Source: a virus
Length of the DNA stretch: 38,859 bases
Reading direction: 5' to 3' (one strand)
IMG/VR virus record: IMGVR_UViG_3300046514_000359
Location: 1-38,859 of that record
Numbering within the stretch: position 1 is the first letter of the stretch; each line of letters starts with the position of its first letter. The notes under the pieces are model-generated. The model was not told the DNA's origin and ran no database searches. It was given only the letters and a program-made list of their open reading frames with translations. The translations under genes and the position numbers were made by a program. Of the stretch, positions 3,179-22,373 are shown one piece after another.

Positions 3179-3511
3179 TTATCTCGCATACAAGATTGAG
3201 ACTTTAAAGACTCCTGTTCCTGCCGTTCCAGTAACATAAAACCCAACTCCTGCACCAAAACCCATATTACAAGCGTTACCCTTATTAGATCTACAATCAA
3301 GCACAAATTCTTCTCCTGCTGCCATCGTAGTGCCATTAACTGAACCGGGATTATCAGCAAAAAAGGCTGAAACTGTAGATTGATTTTTTACCAACAGAAT
3401 GACAGGATTATTTTGTAAAATCCCAAGCAATTGCGATGTTCCAGTAAATGGAGCTGAAATACTCATTTCAGCGTCAAATGCAAGCCTTTGATCGAGTGGG
3501 CTATTGCTCAT
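3179..3511 (-). CDS. small virion-type protein, 110 aa
   Basis: A 110-residue protein with a beta-sandwich-like pattern: LLGILQNNPVILLVKNQSTVSAFFADNPGS (pieces) then GTTMAAGEEFVLDC. The phrasing of a ligand-like loop followed by AAGEEFVLD resembles small phage decoration or fibre-accessory proteins that carry a jelly-roll fold; this is a loose fold guess. It overlaps the previous gene by 11 nt and stops 3 nt before the next one, so it belongs to the fibre operon. No family name can be given with confidence. Confidence 0.5.
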   Translation of the reverse strand: MSNSPLDQRLAFDAEMSISAPFTGTSQLLGILQNNPVILLVKNQSTVSAFFADNPGSVNGTTMAAGEEFVLDCRSNKGNACNMGFGAGVGFYVTGTAGTGVFKVSILYAR

Positions 3512-3758
3512 TTAGTACCTCTGAATTGTCTTGTGATGGTAATTCTCCTGAAACAATTTCTTGTGAAGGATTTGCCTCTTCTTGATCTTTTTTAGCTTTT
3601 TCTTGGGCTGATTTAATTTGATCTTCAAGTGTTGCGACTGCTTTTTGCACTTGAAAAAGAGCCTCTTTTACATGATCAATAGATGAATTTGGATCGCATA
3701 AAAAATGGTAAACTTTGTTTTCGATGATAACTTCGAATTTTGCTAATGTTTGAAACAT
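3501..3758 (-). CDS. coiled-coil small protein, 85 aa (possible fibre chaperone)
   Basis: An 85-residue acidic protein. Residues 1-25 form two short beta strands (FEVIIENKVYHFLCDPNSS), residues 28-60 a Lys/Glu/Ala-rich coiled coil, and the tail is disordered and acidic. A Shine-Dalgarno AGGTAAAA precedes ATG. Its end overlaps the next gene by 11 nt. Size, coiled coil and location just after the large fibre gene fit a fibre assembly chaperone or a small adaptor, but no homology is claimed. Confidence 0.55.
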   Translation of the reverse strand: MFQTLAKFEVIIENKVYHFLCDPNSSIDHVKEALFQVQKAVATLEDQIKSAQEKAKKDQEEANPSQEIVSGELPSQDNSEVLNEQ

Positions 3759-3776
3759 GTTTTTACCTATATCTGA

Positions 3777-3807
3777 GGGTGTATAAATTTATATAATCTA
3801 TACACCC
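3777..3807. terminator. 9-bp hairpin between large fibre gene and next gene
   Basis: GGGTGTATA (3777-3785) pairs perfectly with TATACACCC (3799-3807) around a 13-nt AT-rich loop. It lies in the 71-nt gap after the 795-residue fibre gene and just before the ribosome site of the next gene. On the minus strand no U-run follows, so it may act as a processing or attenuation stem rather than a full terminator. On the plus strand it is followed by TTTATT. Confidence 0.4.
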
Positions 3808-3829
3808 TTTATTAAAAATTTACCAGAAA

Positions 3830-6217
3830 TTATACAGGTCGGACTATGAAGTAAGAGTATGTGCTCACATCAGCAACTAAAATTGTTCCTGTTGTCACTC
3901 CCATGCTAGTTACTGTGAATGAAACACCGTTACTTATTGTATAGGTGAACATTCCTAATGCTGTTGATGCAGCTACACCGACACGGGTGATATATATCTG
4001 GTCACCAGTTGCAATATTTGTATTCAATATTGTTTGTGTTCCTGCTGTCAAAACTCCAGTACCACACATGTCAGTTACGACACCTGCTTTAATTTGAAGT
4101 CCTTTTCCTGTTGTGGCAATTTTTAGGTTAGTTCCTGTTACGCTTACATTACCAGATCCAGCTTGTAAAGTTAGTGCTGAGGTTGTATTGGTTGTTCCTA
4201 TCGTAATTACGTTAGCAGCAGCGCCAGTAGCTATATTCAAAGTTTTTACGCCTGTAGAAGCAGCCACATTTATTGTTTGTGCTCCAGTTCCGCCTAGAAT
4301 TGTTGCTGTGCCTGTATTAGCACCAGTTCCACCGAAGTTAATCGTTCCTGAAGTAACTGAAGGCGCAAAAGTATAGTTACTTGTAGCAGCTCCATCTAAG
4401 CTAAAGTTTCCTGTGCCAACTAACATGCTAATGCTAGCCGCTCCTGTTACACTTCCGATTGTCACTACGTTAGCAACTGCACCTGTAGCTATATTCACAG
4501 CCTTAGCATTAGTTGCTCCTCCAGCGATATTAACAGTTGTAGCACCTGCTCCAGCGCCTATTGCTACTATATTAGTTCCTGAAGAACTTCCTAGAGTAAT
4601 GGTTCCTGTTTGAGCAGTTCCGCCAATAGTAATTGTACCTGTAGTTGTACTCGCTCCAATTGCATATGTGCTTGCAGCATTACCATCAAGGCTAAAGTTT
4701 CCTGTGCCAACTAATAAAGAAAGTGACGCAGCAGCAGAAACAGTTCCAATGGTTACAATATTTCCAATTGCTCCAGTGGCTATATTTACAGTTTTTACTC
4801 CAGTTCCACCAGTGGCTATATTAAGAGTCTGAGCACCTGTTCCGGGAGCTATCGAAATAGTTCCTGTTTGTAGTCCTGTTCCTCCTAATGTTATAGTTCC
4901 TGTAGTCATCGCAGTACCCATATTAATGGCACCTGCAACTTGAACAACTCCAAGACTTAATGTTCCAGCCCCTGATCCATTCATGATTTTCACGGCATTA
5001 GTTCCGCTAGATGAACCTAGAACAATATCACCTGTTTGAGCAGTTCCGCCAATCGTTATAGACCCTGTAGTTGTACTAGCTCCAACATTATATGTTGAGT
5101 TAGTCACACCATCTAAACTATAGTTTCCTGTTCCTACTCTCTCTACAATTCCGGTAGCTCCAGTAACGTTACCGATCGTAATAGTTTTTGCAATCGCTGT
5201 TCCAATATTGATAGGTCCTGTTCCTGAATCTACTATTACACTAGTTGCGCCTGTTTGATTTCCGATTGTGACTGTATGAGCAATAGCATTTGTGCCTACG
5301 TTAACACCACCTGTACCAGCATTTAGAGTGATTGTGGTAGCTCCTGAGCTATTCCCTAAGGTCAATGTTCGAGCCGCCGCACCTGTACCTATATTAATAT
5401 TTTGAGCAACTGCATCATTTCCAATTCCGATAACTCCAGCAGAAGAATTCAATTCAAGTACTCCAGCAGAATCAATCAAAACTGTATCTGCTGAGTTTAG
5501 AACGATATCTCCTGCACCTGTACTCGTCACGGTAAATGATCCTGTGCCTGTATTAACATTGACTGCTGTAGCGCCAGTAACGTTACCGATTGTAATTGTT
5601 CTTGCTCCTGCGCCTGTTCCAATGTTAACTGCACCTGTTGATGCATCTGAAGCAAGGTTTAGCGCTGTAGCTCCTGTAGTAATCGTAGCACTTCCACTTA
5701 ATGAAGCAAGTCCGCTAGCTGCAAGTGTTGTGAATGATCCGGCTGCTGGGGTTGTTCCTCCAATAGCTGGAGCCGCTGCAAAAACTGCTGCTAGATTTGA
5801 TGGAGTCACAAATAATGCTAAGATTGGAGTTGATGCAGTACCTGCAACAGCTTCAGCATCTGTAGCTAATTGGCCAATACCTGCCGTGATTGTTGTTGAT
5901 ACTGGGGCACCAGCTACAACAACGCCATCCACATAATCTTTGATTAATTTAACTGGTGGAACAAGAGTTAATGATGATGCGTCTGTTGCAATACTGGAAG
6001 AAAGCGTGACAATACCCGGCGTAGTAGTAGTAGCGTAAGCATTACCGCCTGTTACCCAAGTAGAACCATTATAAATATATTCTGTGTAAGGAATAGTAGA
6101 TGAATCAAAATATTGTTGTCCAATATTTCCCCGTAAATTAGCTGATGGTGCACCGTCTGATATAATCGAACCTGCGTCAACTGTGACTAATCCCCCGAGG
6201 CCGTAAACTTGTGGCAT
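3830..6217 (-). CDS. large repetitive tail fibre protein, 795 aa
   Basis: A 795-residue fibre. Residues 1-60 form a distinct N-terminal domain with an IGQQYFDSSTIPYTEYIYNGSTW-type motif (pieces), common in phage fibre attachment regions. Residues ~190-700 are built from hundreds of short VNIGTGA, TITIGNVTGAT and TGTITLGGT units, plus three longer units starting GTGNxSLDG near 362, 504 and 601; this pattern suggests a long beta-helical shaft. Residues ~715-795 change to a compact domain (ATGDQIYITRVGVAAS, SNGVSFTVTSMG), the likely receptor-binding or trimer cap. It is probably the main adhesin. Low-complexity repeats make recombination and length variation likely. Confidence 0.75.
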   Translation of the reverse strand: MPQVYGLGGLVTVDAGSIISDGAPSANLRGNIGQQYFDSSTIPYTEYIYNGSTWVTGGNAYATTTTPGIVTLSSSIATDASSLTLVPPVKLIKDYVDGVVVAGAPVSTTITAGIGQLATDAEAVAGTASTPILALFVTPSNLAAVFAAAPAIGGTTPAAGSFTTLAASGLASLSGSATITTGATALNLASDASTGAVNIGTGAGARTITIGNVTGATAVNVNTGTGSFTVTSTGAGDIVLNSADTVLIDSAGVLELNSSAGVIGIGNDAVAQNINIGTGAAARTLTLGNSSGATTITLNAGTGGVNVGTNAIAHTVTIGNQTGATSVIVDSGTGPINIGTAIAKTITIGNVTGATGIVERVGTGNYSLDGVTNSTYNVGASTTTGSITIGGTAQTGDIVLGSSSGTNAVKIMNGSGAGTLSLGVVQVAGAINMGTAMTTGTITLGGTGLQTGTISIAPGTGAQTLNIATGGTGVKTVNIATGAIGNIVTIGTVSAAASLSLLVGTGNFSLDGNAASTYAIGASTTTGTITIGGTAQTGTITLGSSSGTNIVAIGAGAGATTVNIAGGATNAKAVNIATGAVANVVTIGSVTGAASISMLVGTGNFSLDGAATSNYTFAPSVTSGTINFGGTGANTGTATILGGTGAQTINVAASTGVKTLNIATGAAANVITIGTTNTTSALTLQAGSGNVSVTGTNLKIATTGKGLQIKAGVVTDMCGTGVLTAGTQTILNTNIATGDQIYITRVGVAASTALGMFTYTISNGVSFTVTSMGVTTGTILVADVSTYSYFIVRPV

Positions 6218-16594: not shown

Positions 16595-17029
16595 TTACTC
16601 TGGTGAAATATTAATGAATGATCCGGGAATAAATGTCCCTTGATCTCTCAATCCTGTTCTATTCGTTACGCCTGTATTCACGTCTCCTATGGCTGCAACT
16701 TGAGGGTTTTGTATCGTTGCTACAGCAGAGGAATTATACTGTGTTACATTTCTGGATGAATCTATCGAAACTTCCATGATTGTAGGGCTGTTAAACGATA
16801 GGACAAATCCTGTTTTTCCATTTAATTCGATGCTACCAAACTGAGGAGGAATTAACAATCTAATCTCTTGCCCGACAACAAAATTTGTTGCTAATGTCGT
16901 TTCAACGAGTGTTGTTACACCTCGAAAAATCCTAGCAATCACAAATACGCTTGGCTGATAATACTCCGCATGAATGGGTACATTTTGATAAACAGGGATT
17001 GGATAGCTGATTACTGTACTGCTAGTCAT
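16595..17029 (-). CDS. virion protein, paralogue of the 392-aa neighbour, 144 aa
   Basis: A 144-residue protein whose residues ~35-140 match the C-terminal half of the neighbouring 392-residue protein: TLVETTLATNFVVGQEIRLL versus TQVTTTMDHNFEVGQQIAFR, and VAAIGDVNTG versus VVAVGDVNTG. It thus arose by duplication and truncation. A terminator hairpin separates the two, and a clear AGGAGTATC ribosome site precedes this ATG. Probably a minor decoration or head protein of the same beta fold. Confidence 0.65.
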   Translation of the reverse strand: MTSSTVISYPIPVYQNVPIHAEYYQPSVFVIARIFRGVTTLVETTLATNFVVGQEIRLLIPPQFGSIELNGKTGFVLSFNSPTIMEVSIDSSRNVTQYNSSAVATIQNPQVAAIGDVNTGVTNRTGLRDQGTFIPGSFINISPE

Positions 17030-17078: not shown

Positions 17079-18257
17079 TTATGGGCGTGCATAATCGTGA
17101 AGATACGCATGCCAATATACAATATCACCTGTCGTGATTAACGTTGCAGATGTATTAGTAACAGCAGTTCCAGCTCCAATCGTAAAGCCCATGCTTGTGT
17201 TATTCACAAAAGCACCCTTAATAGCAGGGCCATTAATCGTATCAACACGATTACTGAACGTTGGAAATCTTGGAGGCGGATACAGCTGAGATCCTGCACT
17301 AATATCTTGACCGCCTGTATTTACATCGCCTACAGCTACAACCTGAGGGAAGCTTAGTCCCGGAATTGTGTTAGTAGGTGTAATAGGTTGGTTAGGATTA
17401 AATGCAGTATATGCAGTGGAATTGATGTTACAAGTAAACGTACGATTACTTGCTACAGAAATTACATATGCATACGCTGGAGATCCAGGAATCAATAGAT
17501 TAGGAAGCGAATTCAATTGCACTGTACCGTATGGTTGCGGAATACGAAATGCAATCTGTTGTCCCACTTCAAAGTTATGATCCATAGTGGTAGTAACTTG
17601 TGTAGTAGCTCCTAGAGAGATCAACGAGATATAATTATCTTGCGGAAGATATAGGAACGGATACAACACTTTCTGTACTGTTGATCCAACAGGTGAACCA
17701 CTCAGTGCAGTATAATTACTTCCGCTAGCATCCCAACTTACTGTAAAAGTATTAGCAGATCCGACAGTAATGATTGTAAACATCATTCCTGCCATTTGAG
17801 CCATACCAGTACTTGCAGATTGATATAATCCTTTCAATAGAACAGTATCACCAACTTTGTAACCGTGGCCTGTAACTGTAAATACTGGAGGATTAGCAGC
17901 AGTTGCACTAACAATTTGTTGTGCTGGTCCATACTGTAACAACTGACCTGCTTGAAATACATTGATCGCTTGATGTGTAGCATCATTTGATATTGTATCA
18001 AAAGCGGTAAATGTGGTTGATCCACTTGGATATAGCTCAATCATAGTTGGAATAGTTGAAGATGTAGTATCTATCAAATTGCTATCCCACCATGCTCTAG
18101 TAACTTTATTAACTGCTGGAGCATTTTTCATGTTAGTATAGTTCCAAATCTCAACAAAATCAGGCATAAAAGGAAGTTTTATTACAGCCGATGTTGCAGC
18201 AGCTTCAGTTCCTGTTGCTACGAAAGAGCCTTTAGCTAATCTTGAATATTCAGCCAT
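17079..18257 (-). CDS. major virion protein next to the capsid gene, 392 aa
   Basis: A 392-residue beta-rich protein starting MAEYSRLAKGSFVATGTEAA. Residues ~120-190 contain the FCCH-like unit VTGHGYKVGDTVLLKG...MFTIITVGSANTFTV. A second similar unit follows from ~225 (VTTTMDHNFEVGQQIAF). The C-terminus ends TGDIVYWHAYLHDYARP. It starts 1 nt after the capsid stop and is closed by a terminator, so it should be made at capsid-like level; this suits a decoration or abundant head protein. I recall similar genes directly behind N4-gp56-type capsid genes. Family not formally named. Confidence 0.6.
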   Translation of the reverse strand: MAEYSRLAKGSFVATGTEAAATSAVIKLPFMPDFVEIWNYTNMKNAPAVNKVTRAWWDSNLIDTTSSTIPTMIELYPSGSTTFTAFDTISNDATHQAINVFQAGQLLQYGPAQQIVSATAANPPVFTVTGHGYKVGDTVLLKGLYQSASTGMAQMAGMMFTIITVGSANTFTVSWDASGSNYTALSGSPVGSTVQKVLYPFLYLPQDNYISLISLGATTQVTTTMDHNFEVGQQIAFRIPQPYGTVQLNSLPNLLIPGSPAYAYVISVASNRTFTCNINSTAYTAFNPNQPITPTNTIPGLSFPQVVAVGDVNTGGQDISAGSQLYPPPRFPTFSNRVDTINGPAIKGAFVNNTSMGFTIGAGTAVTNTSATLITTGDIVYWHAYLHDYARP

Positions 18258-18258
18258 C

Positions 18259-19464
18259 TTATACCCCCAATGCGCTAGAGCGAGTTGAAAGAACGTTGCG
18301 GATAGCTGTATCTTGAGTCAGAGCTTGAGCTTGAGCAAATTTAACAGCAAGAGTAGCGTTCTGAGCTAACATACCAGAATAATAAGGATCACGATAAATA
18401 AGATTCATCGAGAAACCATCTTGATTGATATGCGTAATAGCTTGTTTACCTAAAACGGTGTTGTAGTATACATCAGAAGTCATACCAGCTGAGTTAGTAG
18501 CTGCATTACGCGCCACAGGTGCTTCAGAGCTAGTTAAAATTCTAATATTTGCTACTGCGCCATATTCGGATGGCAACGCGCTACTATTATTTGGATAATT
18601 CCACTGGTTTTGGAATGAAATGTTACCGCTAGCAGCCATTGCATCAAAGTCTGACTGTAGTTCAGTCGAACTTAACATGAAATAACTCGATCTCACGGGT
18701 CCGGTTCCAAAACGTAAATCCCCGTTGATACCTGACATAAATTTGTATGCATTATTAGTATCAAGAGTAGTAGCAACCAAACTAAAATCTGTAACCCCGA
18801 GCGGTGTTGGGTTAAAAGAACCTCCTCCCCCTCCGGCGTTTATTTGACTCGCAGCAGAAACGATATAATCGCGCAAAATCAAATCTTCAGCTTGACGCAT
18901 GGCGACCGCTAAACGCTCTGATACCCACGCTAATACGCCTTCTTGATCTTGCAAAATAACTTGCTCGTTAATGATACATCCTGTACCAAAAAAAGCCATT
19001 TGTGCATCGATGATGTCTCTCTGAGGCACCTGTGCTGGTGGATCAATTCCTGAATTCCCCAACTGTACAGTCGGTGGTTGTAGTGCGCGTGGGCGCATAA
19101 ATCTGCATGTAGTTCCGCCGTTTGCGGGCATAGAAACTTTATCGCACACAGTAATGTAATTCATTGTTGGGGTCGGCACATATCATTTTGTTACTAACAC
19201 TCAACTATTAGTTAACTGTTAGGATAAGTCATTTCTGCTTATCTCATTCCCTTTCGTTGGAATGTTCGGACTGTCGCTTCTCTTTCGAGTTTCTTCACTC
19301 AGTCTCTCAGGCTGTATTTAAACTTGCCCCCTGTCGCCATGCCTTTCGGTTTAGGCTTCCAAGTCAATCAGAAGAAATTTAACGATACCATATTATTTTA
19401 GCATCGCCGGAGCTAGGCTCTGGAGAATCATTGGGCCCAACCCAGAAGTGGTTGTAATACTCAC
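18259..19464 (-). CDS. major capsid protein, N4-gp56 type, interrupted by a group I intron
   Basis: Read as two exons: 19464-19400 (65 nt) and 19183-18259 (925 nt). Exon 1 starts GTG behind AAGGAAATAAGATC and encodes MSITTTSGLGPMILQSLAPAM plus two bases of a Leu codon. Exon 2 continues YVPTPTMNYITVCDKV, then FMRPRALQPPTVQLGNSGID and the helix RLAVAMRQAEDLILRDYIVS. The joined 329-residue protein has the layout of the N4-gp56 capsid family: N-arm, VCDKVSMPANGGTTCRF strand, spine helix, then the A-domain. Without splicing the in-frame TGA at 19185-19183 truncates exon 1 reading and exon 2 has no ribosome site. Forms the shell around the scaffold. Confidence 0.8.
19184..19399 (-). ncRNA. 216-nt group I intron, no internal ORF
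   Basis: Boundaries follow from pairing. P1: exon end GGCGATGCT pairs with GGTATCGTT in the intron, placing a U.G at the 5' site. P10: exon-2 start ATAT pairs with ATAT just before that guide. The intron ends in G (19184). P7 is GACTG (in GAGAGACTGA) with CAGTC (in GCGACAGTCC); P8 is CTC-GAAA-GAG; P9 CATTCC/GGAATG; a further stem GATAAG/CTTATC. The transcript is on the minus strand. It should self-splice with guanosine. At 216 nt it is near the small end for group I introns. No endonuclease ORF fits inside. Confidence 0.85.
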
Positions 19465-19626
19465 GATCTTATTTCCTTGTGGTGGTTACAAGAATGTGAT
19501 ACAATGATTGGTAGACGAGCCTAACTTACGTCCGTTCTCAATATACCTTCAGGGTGTGCGAAGTCCTATTACGCGATAGATTTAACGCATTCCTGCGAAA
19601 CTTCATTTTAACAAAGGAAACATTAT

Positions 19627-20340
19627 ATGCAACAATTAATTGGACTAAGATTTGGGCAATGGATTGTACTTGAATTCTTAGGAAAGTTTGTGCGAGTAAA
19701 CAAATTCAAAGTCAAATGTGATTGTGGGAATGAATCAATTTCAGATTACATAGCTTTAACAAGGGGTAAAAGTACTAAATGCCGATCATGCGCTCGAAAA
19801 ATATCAACTAAAGGAGAGAAAAATGCAGCACATAAGCATGGATATTCTTCTGTAAATCATCCAAATTTTAAAGTGTATACGGCTTGGTGTATGATAAAAA
19901 GTCGATGCACCAGAGAAAAAGATAAGAATTACTCAAATTATGGAGGTAGAGGAATTGTGATGTGTGAACGATGGAAAGAATCGTTCGAAAATTTCTTAGA
20001 AGATATGGGTCATCCAAAACCTCATGAAAGTATAGATCGAATAGATGTTAATGGAAACTATTGCCCAGAGAATTGCAGATGGACAGATCAAGAAACCCAA
20101 AGCAATAACAAGAGGGAGAATATTTATTATGAATATGAAGGATTAAAACTTTCTGAAACTCAATGGGCTAGAAAACTAGGGATTTCTAGAAATAAAGTAA
20201 TGTGGTGGGCTCGCAAAAATGGTATTGAATGGGTTATTAAAAATACTGAATTACTCATCCAAACAAAAGTTGGAATGAGTGATCATGAATACTTGTCATT
20301 AGGTTTAGAATTGCCATCTAAAAAATATAGACTATCTTGA
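19627..20340 (+). CDS. HNH/AP2-type homing endonuclease, free-standing, 237 aa
   Basis: Residues 1-60 have RFGQWIVLEFLG and a CDCGN...CRSC zinc module, usual at the start of these phage nucleases. The core at ~88-160 has YTAWCMIKSRCTREK, NYGGRGIVMCERW, DRIDVNGNYCPENCRW then TDQETQSNNKR, the conserved HNH-like pattern. The last ~70 residues (from about 170) are an extra DNA-binding tail with a YEGLKLSETQWARKLGISR helix-turn-helix. Ribosome site AAAGGAAAC. It lies 162 nt upstream of the intron-containing capsid gene on the opposite strand, between scaffold and capsid, so it is not in the intron. It could promote trans homing of the intron. Confidence 0.85.
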   Translation: MQQLIGLRFGQWIVLEFLGKFVRVNKFKVKCDCGNESISDYIALTRGKSTKCRSCARKISTKGEKNAAHKHGYSSVNHPNFKVYTAWCMIKSRCTREKDKNYSNYGGRGIVMCERWKESFENFLEDMGHPKPHESIDRIDVNGNYCPENCRWTDQETQSNNKRENIYYEYEGLKLSETQWARKLGISRNKVMWWARKNGIEWVIKNTELLIQTKVGMSDHEYLSLGLELPSKKYRLS

Positions 20341-22301: not shown

Positions 22302-22373
22302 TGACACGTGGTTGAATCGAACGAACCGACCCCCCGATTATACATCAGGACTCTCCCACTGAGCTAACGCGTC
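22302..22373 (-). tRNA. divergent or degenerate tRNA, apparent anticodon UAU
   Basis: A 72-nt element with a 7/7 paired acceptor stem GACGCGT/ACGTGTC (one G.U), box-A-like TAGCTCAGTGGGAGAG D-arm, a 5-bp anticodon stem CCTGA/TCGGG, and T-loop TTCGATT. Peculiarities: the anticodon loop TGTATAA has G where U33 is invariant, the T-stem needs a bulged C, and the base between D- and anticodon stems is lost unless the D-stem is shortened. No CCA is encoded. If it works it reads AUA (Ile). It begins 7 nt after the stop of the 73-residue gene. Confidence 0.55.

Follow-up and report, generated by a model that had tools for sequence, protein, structure and literature searches.

The N4-gp56 major capsid gene (mcp) on the minus strand of the window (the whole 38,859-nt stretch that was analyzed, numbered from its first letter) is interrupted by exactly 216 nt (19399..19184). 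This insert is very probably a group I intron that excises itself from RNA, and its mobility probably depends on a neighboring, divergently oriented HNH endonuclease gene. The explanation as a whole, in which a self-splicing intron spreads by collaborative homing with a free-standing HNH gene, is considered very likely. The intron and the homing are of known kinds; their concentration at the start of one capsid gene is unusual.

Exon 1 (19400..19464, minus strand; 65 nt) consists of a GTG start, 21 codons and 2 nt, and AAGGAA, a good ribosome site, lies 8 nt upstream of GTG 19464. From this GTG the frame encodes VSITTTSGLGPMILQSLAPAML and ends at a TAA formed by nt 5–7 of the intron. Exon 2 (18259..19183, minus strand; 925 nt including the stop) matches the TIGR04387 model (NCBIfam, N4-gp56 family major capsid protein) and phrog_1357 (major head protein). 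The downstream open reading frame starts at GTG 19179, with an in-frame TGA just upstream (19185–19183). Joining of exon 1 to exon 2 yields 330 codons including the stop, and hence a 329-residue protein, which scores 80.8 bits against TIGR04387 (79.8 bits for exon 2 alone; cut-off 60), a model that is also matched by all 16 relatives tested. The tblastn search for capsid matches in named phages gave none. The preliminary description had claimed an N4-gp56 capsid gene whose apparent start has no ribosome site and is preceded by a stop, 21 missing N-terminal residues supplied by an upstream frame with a good ribosome site, and a single splice solution that restores the frame, and each of these features was recovered here. 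About the first 22 residues of this capsid protein will escape gene callers.

That the insert remains unspliced, and is either bypassed by ribosomes (as at T4 gene 60) or separates two distinct peptides, is very improbable. The length of 216 nt is a multiple of three and the second open reading frame has a GTG start, as such a reading would have it, but the exon 1 frame runs into the TAA described above, the ribozyme core is conserved and covarying, and an intron bounded by U and G with a matching guide is possible at all five insertion sites in this capsid family (see below).

Assignment of the insert as an ORF-less group I intron (19184..19399, minus strand) is supported by covariance models, a table of splice sites and empty sites in relatives. 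The internal guide sequence GGTATCGTT (19381..19389) pairs with the end of exon 1, GGCGATGCT (19408–19400), to form a 9-bp P1 helix that places a U.G pair at the splice point; none of 20,000 shuffled intron starts reached its score. The adjacent P10 strand ATAT (19390..19393) pairs over 4 bp with ATAT at the start of exon 2 (19183–19180), and the terminal G of the intron is 19184. In the core, the P3 5′ strand TTTCTTC (19371..19377) pairs with the 3′ strand GAAGAAA (19290–19296), P4 (CTTG/CAGG) encloses P5 (GCC/GGC) at 19330..19363, and P6 (GGC/GCC) occupies 19310..19328. The guanosine-binding helix P7 (19269..19304), formed by GACTG (19304–19300) and CAGTC (19273–19269), makes a pseudoknot with P3 and contains P8 (CTC GAAA GAG). 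Strand folding places the hairpins P9 (CATTCC/GGAATG) and P9.1 (GATAAG/CTTATC) at 19223..19264. All of these elements lie on the minus strand. In the intron family the P7 letters are GACUA/UAGUC, as in T4 td and nrdB. The P1 with its U.G pair, the P10, the terminal G and the P7 pairing, which had been proposed earlier as agreeing with one splice solution, are all borne out.

Guide pairing extends to the sister introns. Within this capsid family, ten introns spread over five sites were compared, and homology to uninterrupted genes located their junctions within a few nt. Each fits a U-ending exon 1 and a G-ending intron, and their guide helices are 6–9 bp long, each guide matching its own exon. 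When exons and guides were swapped among eight introns, the mean total score was 58 vs 125 observed, and only 1 of 20,000 permutations reached 125. A compensatory change of exon and guide is seen between L044 (CCAACCAT with GTGGTTG) and L055 (CCAACGAT with GTCGTTG).

Sequence and covariation show that the intron in the transcript folds into a P3–P9 ribozyme whose guide base-pairs with the last nucleotides of exon 1. Guanosine held in P7 would then attack after U19400, and the freed exon 1 would attack after G19184, so that the exons would be joined in frame to encode the 329-residue capsid protein. Splicing should be efficient because the capsid protein is abundant and the gene indispensable.

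Covariance models built from other introns recognize the same core. Model R1 comprised 62 aligned cores and left out the introns of loci L001–L087 in the capsid family of the window. In this set 98.2% of the cells assigned to P3, P4, P5, P6, P7 and P8 hold standard base pairs, both sides have changed in 269 cells vs 66 in shuffles, and pairing falls to 40–45% when partners are slid by one column. Since related capsid genes (L124, L159, L194 and L195 among others) had contributed introns to R1, a cleaner model, R2, was built from 33 introns, each without a nearby match to this capsid protein, and with P7 omitted from the model; in these 33 introns the core pairs including P7 are 98.9% paired, with 129 double changes vs 31 in shuffles. 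With E-values that are rough owing to short calibration, R1 gave 96 bits (E 1.3e-21) on the window intron and R2 gave 83.2 bits (E 3.2e-17) at 19266–19378, the runner-up place in the window scoring 15.1 bits. The R2 score and the covarying P3/P7 core confirm the 216-nt group I intron at the position first proposed. A match to the Rfam group I model had also been expected, and this expectation failed: Rfam scans at gathering and permissive E-values reported no group I match in the window. The T4 td and nrdB introns, used as a control, were likewise unreported, and the silence of Rfam is therefore given no weight. The Rfam group I model fails to report a common phage intron family; the published Rfam seed is without subgroups ID and IE (PMC11878797).

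Relatives of the capsid locus were sampled by tblastn as 80 viral contigs, a sample whose ranking introduces a bias into the linkage of intron and HNH gene described below. Exclusion of L001–L003 (which carry the same insert), L077 (incomplete) and six other interrupted loci leaves 70 intronless loci, and in these 70 relatives the N-terminus is unbroken and reads MSITTTGNLGPMILQSLAPAMLYVPTPTMNYITVCDKVSMP or close to MSITTTGNLGPMILQSLAPAMLYVPTPTMNYITVCDKVSMP. Exon 1 of the window matches these relatives in frame and N-terminus. The preliminary description had regarded uninterrupted relatives whose protein starts at the second exon as evidence against an intron; uninterrupted relatives do exist, yet the exon 1 residues are part of their N-terminus, which does not begin at exon 2, and the intron is thereby supported. 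L004 provides a near-identical empty site for the intron position of the window and has its own intron 35 nt upstream of that position, so that L004 and the window are mutual empty sites. In the N-terminus survey L064 showed a long open reading frame, yet the start of this frame lies inside an intron.

As all data are metagenomic contigs, an assembly artefact or a degenerate, non-functional gene has to be considered. This is extremely improbable: the insert is carried by three further contigs (L001–L003), of which L003 is identical to the window, mcp is the sole capsid copy within the window, and L001 and L003 differ at 41 positions in exon 2 with the protein unchanged.

Sister introns in relatives occupy five sites spanning 63 nt at the start of the capsid gene: after nt 30 of the capsid frame (L004, L064), nt 62 (L087), nt 65 (the window, L001–L003, L159), nt 86 (L044, L055) and nt 93 (L071, L075, L087). 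When the intron label is mapped onto the exon 2 codon tree, seven changes are needed for eight rows, and no fewer than four of these changes fall on well supported branches. The capsid gene of L087 (minus strand, about 1357–830) holds two group I introns with a 31-nt exon between them; near codon 7 the reading frame of its exon 1 is disturbed (GGGTTGAACTTAGGT). The 541-nt intron of L064 (about 3421–3962) follows codon 10 and holds a 142-aa open reading frame, for which no convincing Pfam or PHROG match was found. These sister introns, together with phage introns of ~206 nt (PMC12363816), do not sustain the earlier view that small ORF-less introns are uncommon.

The intron family extends beyond these loci. 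Other capsid genes of the N4-gp56 kind are interrupted at points further downstream, and some of those introns enclose LAGLIDADG genes. The pattern CTGATTGACTYGGAAGCC, derived from sibling introns, matched at least 120 viral stretches and a further 28 from prokaryote genomes. The core matches number at least 155, with at least 27 inside such capsid genes with both flanks recognized and at least 24 more touching such a gene on one side, these counts from a pattern scan being lower bounds and not frequencies. Related capsid genes in L195, L194, L124 and L159 have two or more interruptions, including this intron family, several with LAGLIDADG genes.

The free-standing HNH endonuclease gene (19627..20340, plus strand; phrog_374, 8.6e-53) is divergent from mcp and lies 162 nt from exon 1. 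At the DNA level, matches in named phages are confined to this gene; no usable solved structure was found for its protein. HNH homologues occur in the same place and orientation in L001–L004, L044, L055, L071, L075 and L087, and none was found in the other loci of the 80-contig tblastn sample. With the window group counted once, the HNH gene is present in 6 of 7 intron-bearing lineages and in 0 of 70 intronless loci, at least two of which (L019, L020) have less than 900 nt of upstream sequence (Fisher p 3e-8, a value that ignores the shared ancestry of lineages). When supported branches only are used, HNH gene and intron occur together in all four independent pairs (sign test p 0.125). L087 (HNH present) and L159 (HNH absent) were found via their introns and stand outside the 6/7 count. 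Two loci count against collaborative homing and weaken a perfect HNH–intron linkage: L159 has an intron at the site of the window without an adjacent HNH gene, and L064, the exception within the count, has its ORF-bearing intron without one. The HNH proteins show two domain orders, the zinc-binding part lying before or after the HNH part, and form three sequence groups that track the insertion sites: window/L004/L087 (nt 30–65, and 93 in L087), L044/L055 (nt 86) and L071/L075 (nt 93).

These associations are consistent with a pathway in which the intron, having no endonuclease of its own, relies on the divergent HNH enzyme, whose probable target is the conserved stretch of ~35 codons at the start of capsid genes that have no intron; there it would introduce a cut or a nick. 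Repair templated by the donor would then copy the HNH gene, the leader, exon 1 and the intron together. Comparison of close relatives offers support for such transfer. The flanks of L055 and its close sister L041, which has neither the HNH gene nor the intron, are about 90–100% identical by segment, whereas leader plus exon 1 are 76% identical and the first ~170–180 nt of exon 2 about 83%; the difference looks like a single imported tract running from the HNH gene through the intron. Among the near-clonal L001, L002 and L003, whose exon 2 proteins are identical, differences fall in nested tracts with a common left end 22 nt inside the intron (before its 3′ end), extending to 4027 (L002) or 4405 (L001) in locus coordinates. 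Such nesting would fit repeated repair events at this spot; because the contigs are metagenomic, chimeric assembly near conserved exons is also possible.

An alternative that appears rather unlikely keeps the splicing intron but treats the HNH gene as a free-standing homing gene that is unrelated to it and shares its hot spot, the intron having arrived with an endonuclease since lost or by means of one in another intron. L159, in which the same-site intron has no HNH gene next to it and the second intron encloses a LAGLIDADG gene, speaks for this, and for loci of this type the turnover of endonuclease genes is accepted as another explanation (PMC10448857). Against it stand the distribution of the HNH gene (6/7 intron-bearing lineages, 0/70 others), the tracking of insertion sites by the three HNH groups, and the single replaced tract in L055 that contains both HNH gene and intron. 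The introns could conceivably act as shields, although this is a doubtful proposal: one HNH lineage would target the conserved capsid start, and any intron within the ~65-nt target would give immunity and so be carried along. This would explain why different introns (nt 30, 62, 65 and 93) are found beside the HNH genes of the window, L004 and L087, which are 65–69% identical to one another.

A conserved mcp leader of ~120 nt (about 19485..19605, minus strand) is present with and without the HNH gene and is not part of the intron. It is kept in most relatives (alignment A3, 44 relatives). Because most intronless, HNH-less relatives have it, the block is assigned to the capsid gene as its leader, and its interpretation as part of a mobile cassette was rejected. 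Two of its arms resemble tandem H-type pseudoknots, and their helix partners outscore those shuffled among sequences (z 10.8 and 8.8; 0/1000 each). A search of the leader against Rfam gave no match, and a weak match to the DUF2815 RNA (E 7.8) was taken as chance. As an RNA element the leader possibly regulates the capsid gene in cis.

Phage capsid genes interrupted by group I introns are already known, as are phage introns of ~206 nt and collaborative homing. For mycobacteriophage LittleE, RT-PCR and protein sequencing demonstrated that the group I intron of its major capsid gene is spliced (PMC3706429), and Tuc2009 is cited in the same paper for another phage capsid-gene group I intron. As in LittleE, the intron of the window interrupts the gene for the major capsid protein of a phage, U is the last letter of exon 1, G is the last letter of the intron and the joined protein matches relatives; the LittleE intron is about 820 bp long with its own endonuclease gene inside, whereas the present one has 216 nt and no ORF, the endonuclease gene lies outside, and splicing is predicted from sequence. 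The Jug phages also have small group I introns (~206 nt on average; 37 of 76 checked were spliced in metatranscriptomes) and mostly stand-alone endonuclease genes (PMC12363816), but these are huge gut phages with introns in terL, nrdD and DNA polymerase, whereas the phages described here are of ~39 kb and have the capsid gene as their hot spot.

Collaborative homing loci, in which an ORF-less group I intron similarly adjoins a free-standing endonuclease gene, have been described in T3/T7-like phages, a cyanophage and the ICP1 terminase gene (PMC3984707, PMC10448857). In two known phage systems the endonuclease target was demonstrated to be the intron site, whereas the present evidence is comparative; unlike the known loci, the capsid locus presents several introns at five close sites beside related HNH genes. 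T4 segD is likewise a free-standing endonuclease gene in opposite orientation beside a major capsid gene, gene 23 (PMC2988022), but it belongs to the GIY-YIG family and no gene 23 intron is reported alongside it, whereas here an HNH gene and an intron occur together. Within the literature searched, this intron, the frequent occurrence of its family in N4-gp56 capsid genes and the clustering of varied introns beside a divergent HNH gene are new. Repeated invasion at neighboring sites, matched empty alleles and a candidate endonuclease make the locus a test bed for collaborative homing.

Several further features of these genomes were observed. The gene after mcp (17079–18257) is major tail protein-like (phrog_584), with a weak partial second copy just downstream (16670–16960; 34% identity). 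A tRNA-Ile gene with anticodon TAT (22302–22373, minus strand) lies between the portal gene and a 219-aa gene upstream of mcp. L243, a phage contig found via the HNH protein, is matched six times by the intron model over about 5.5 kb.
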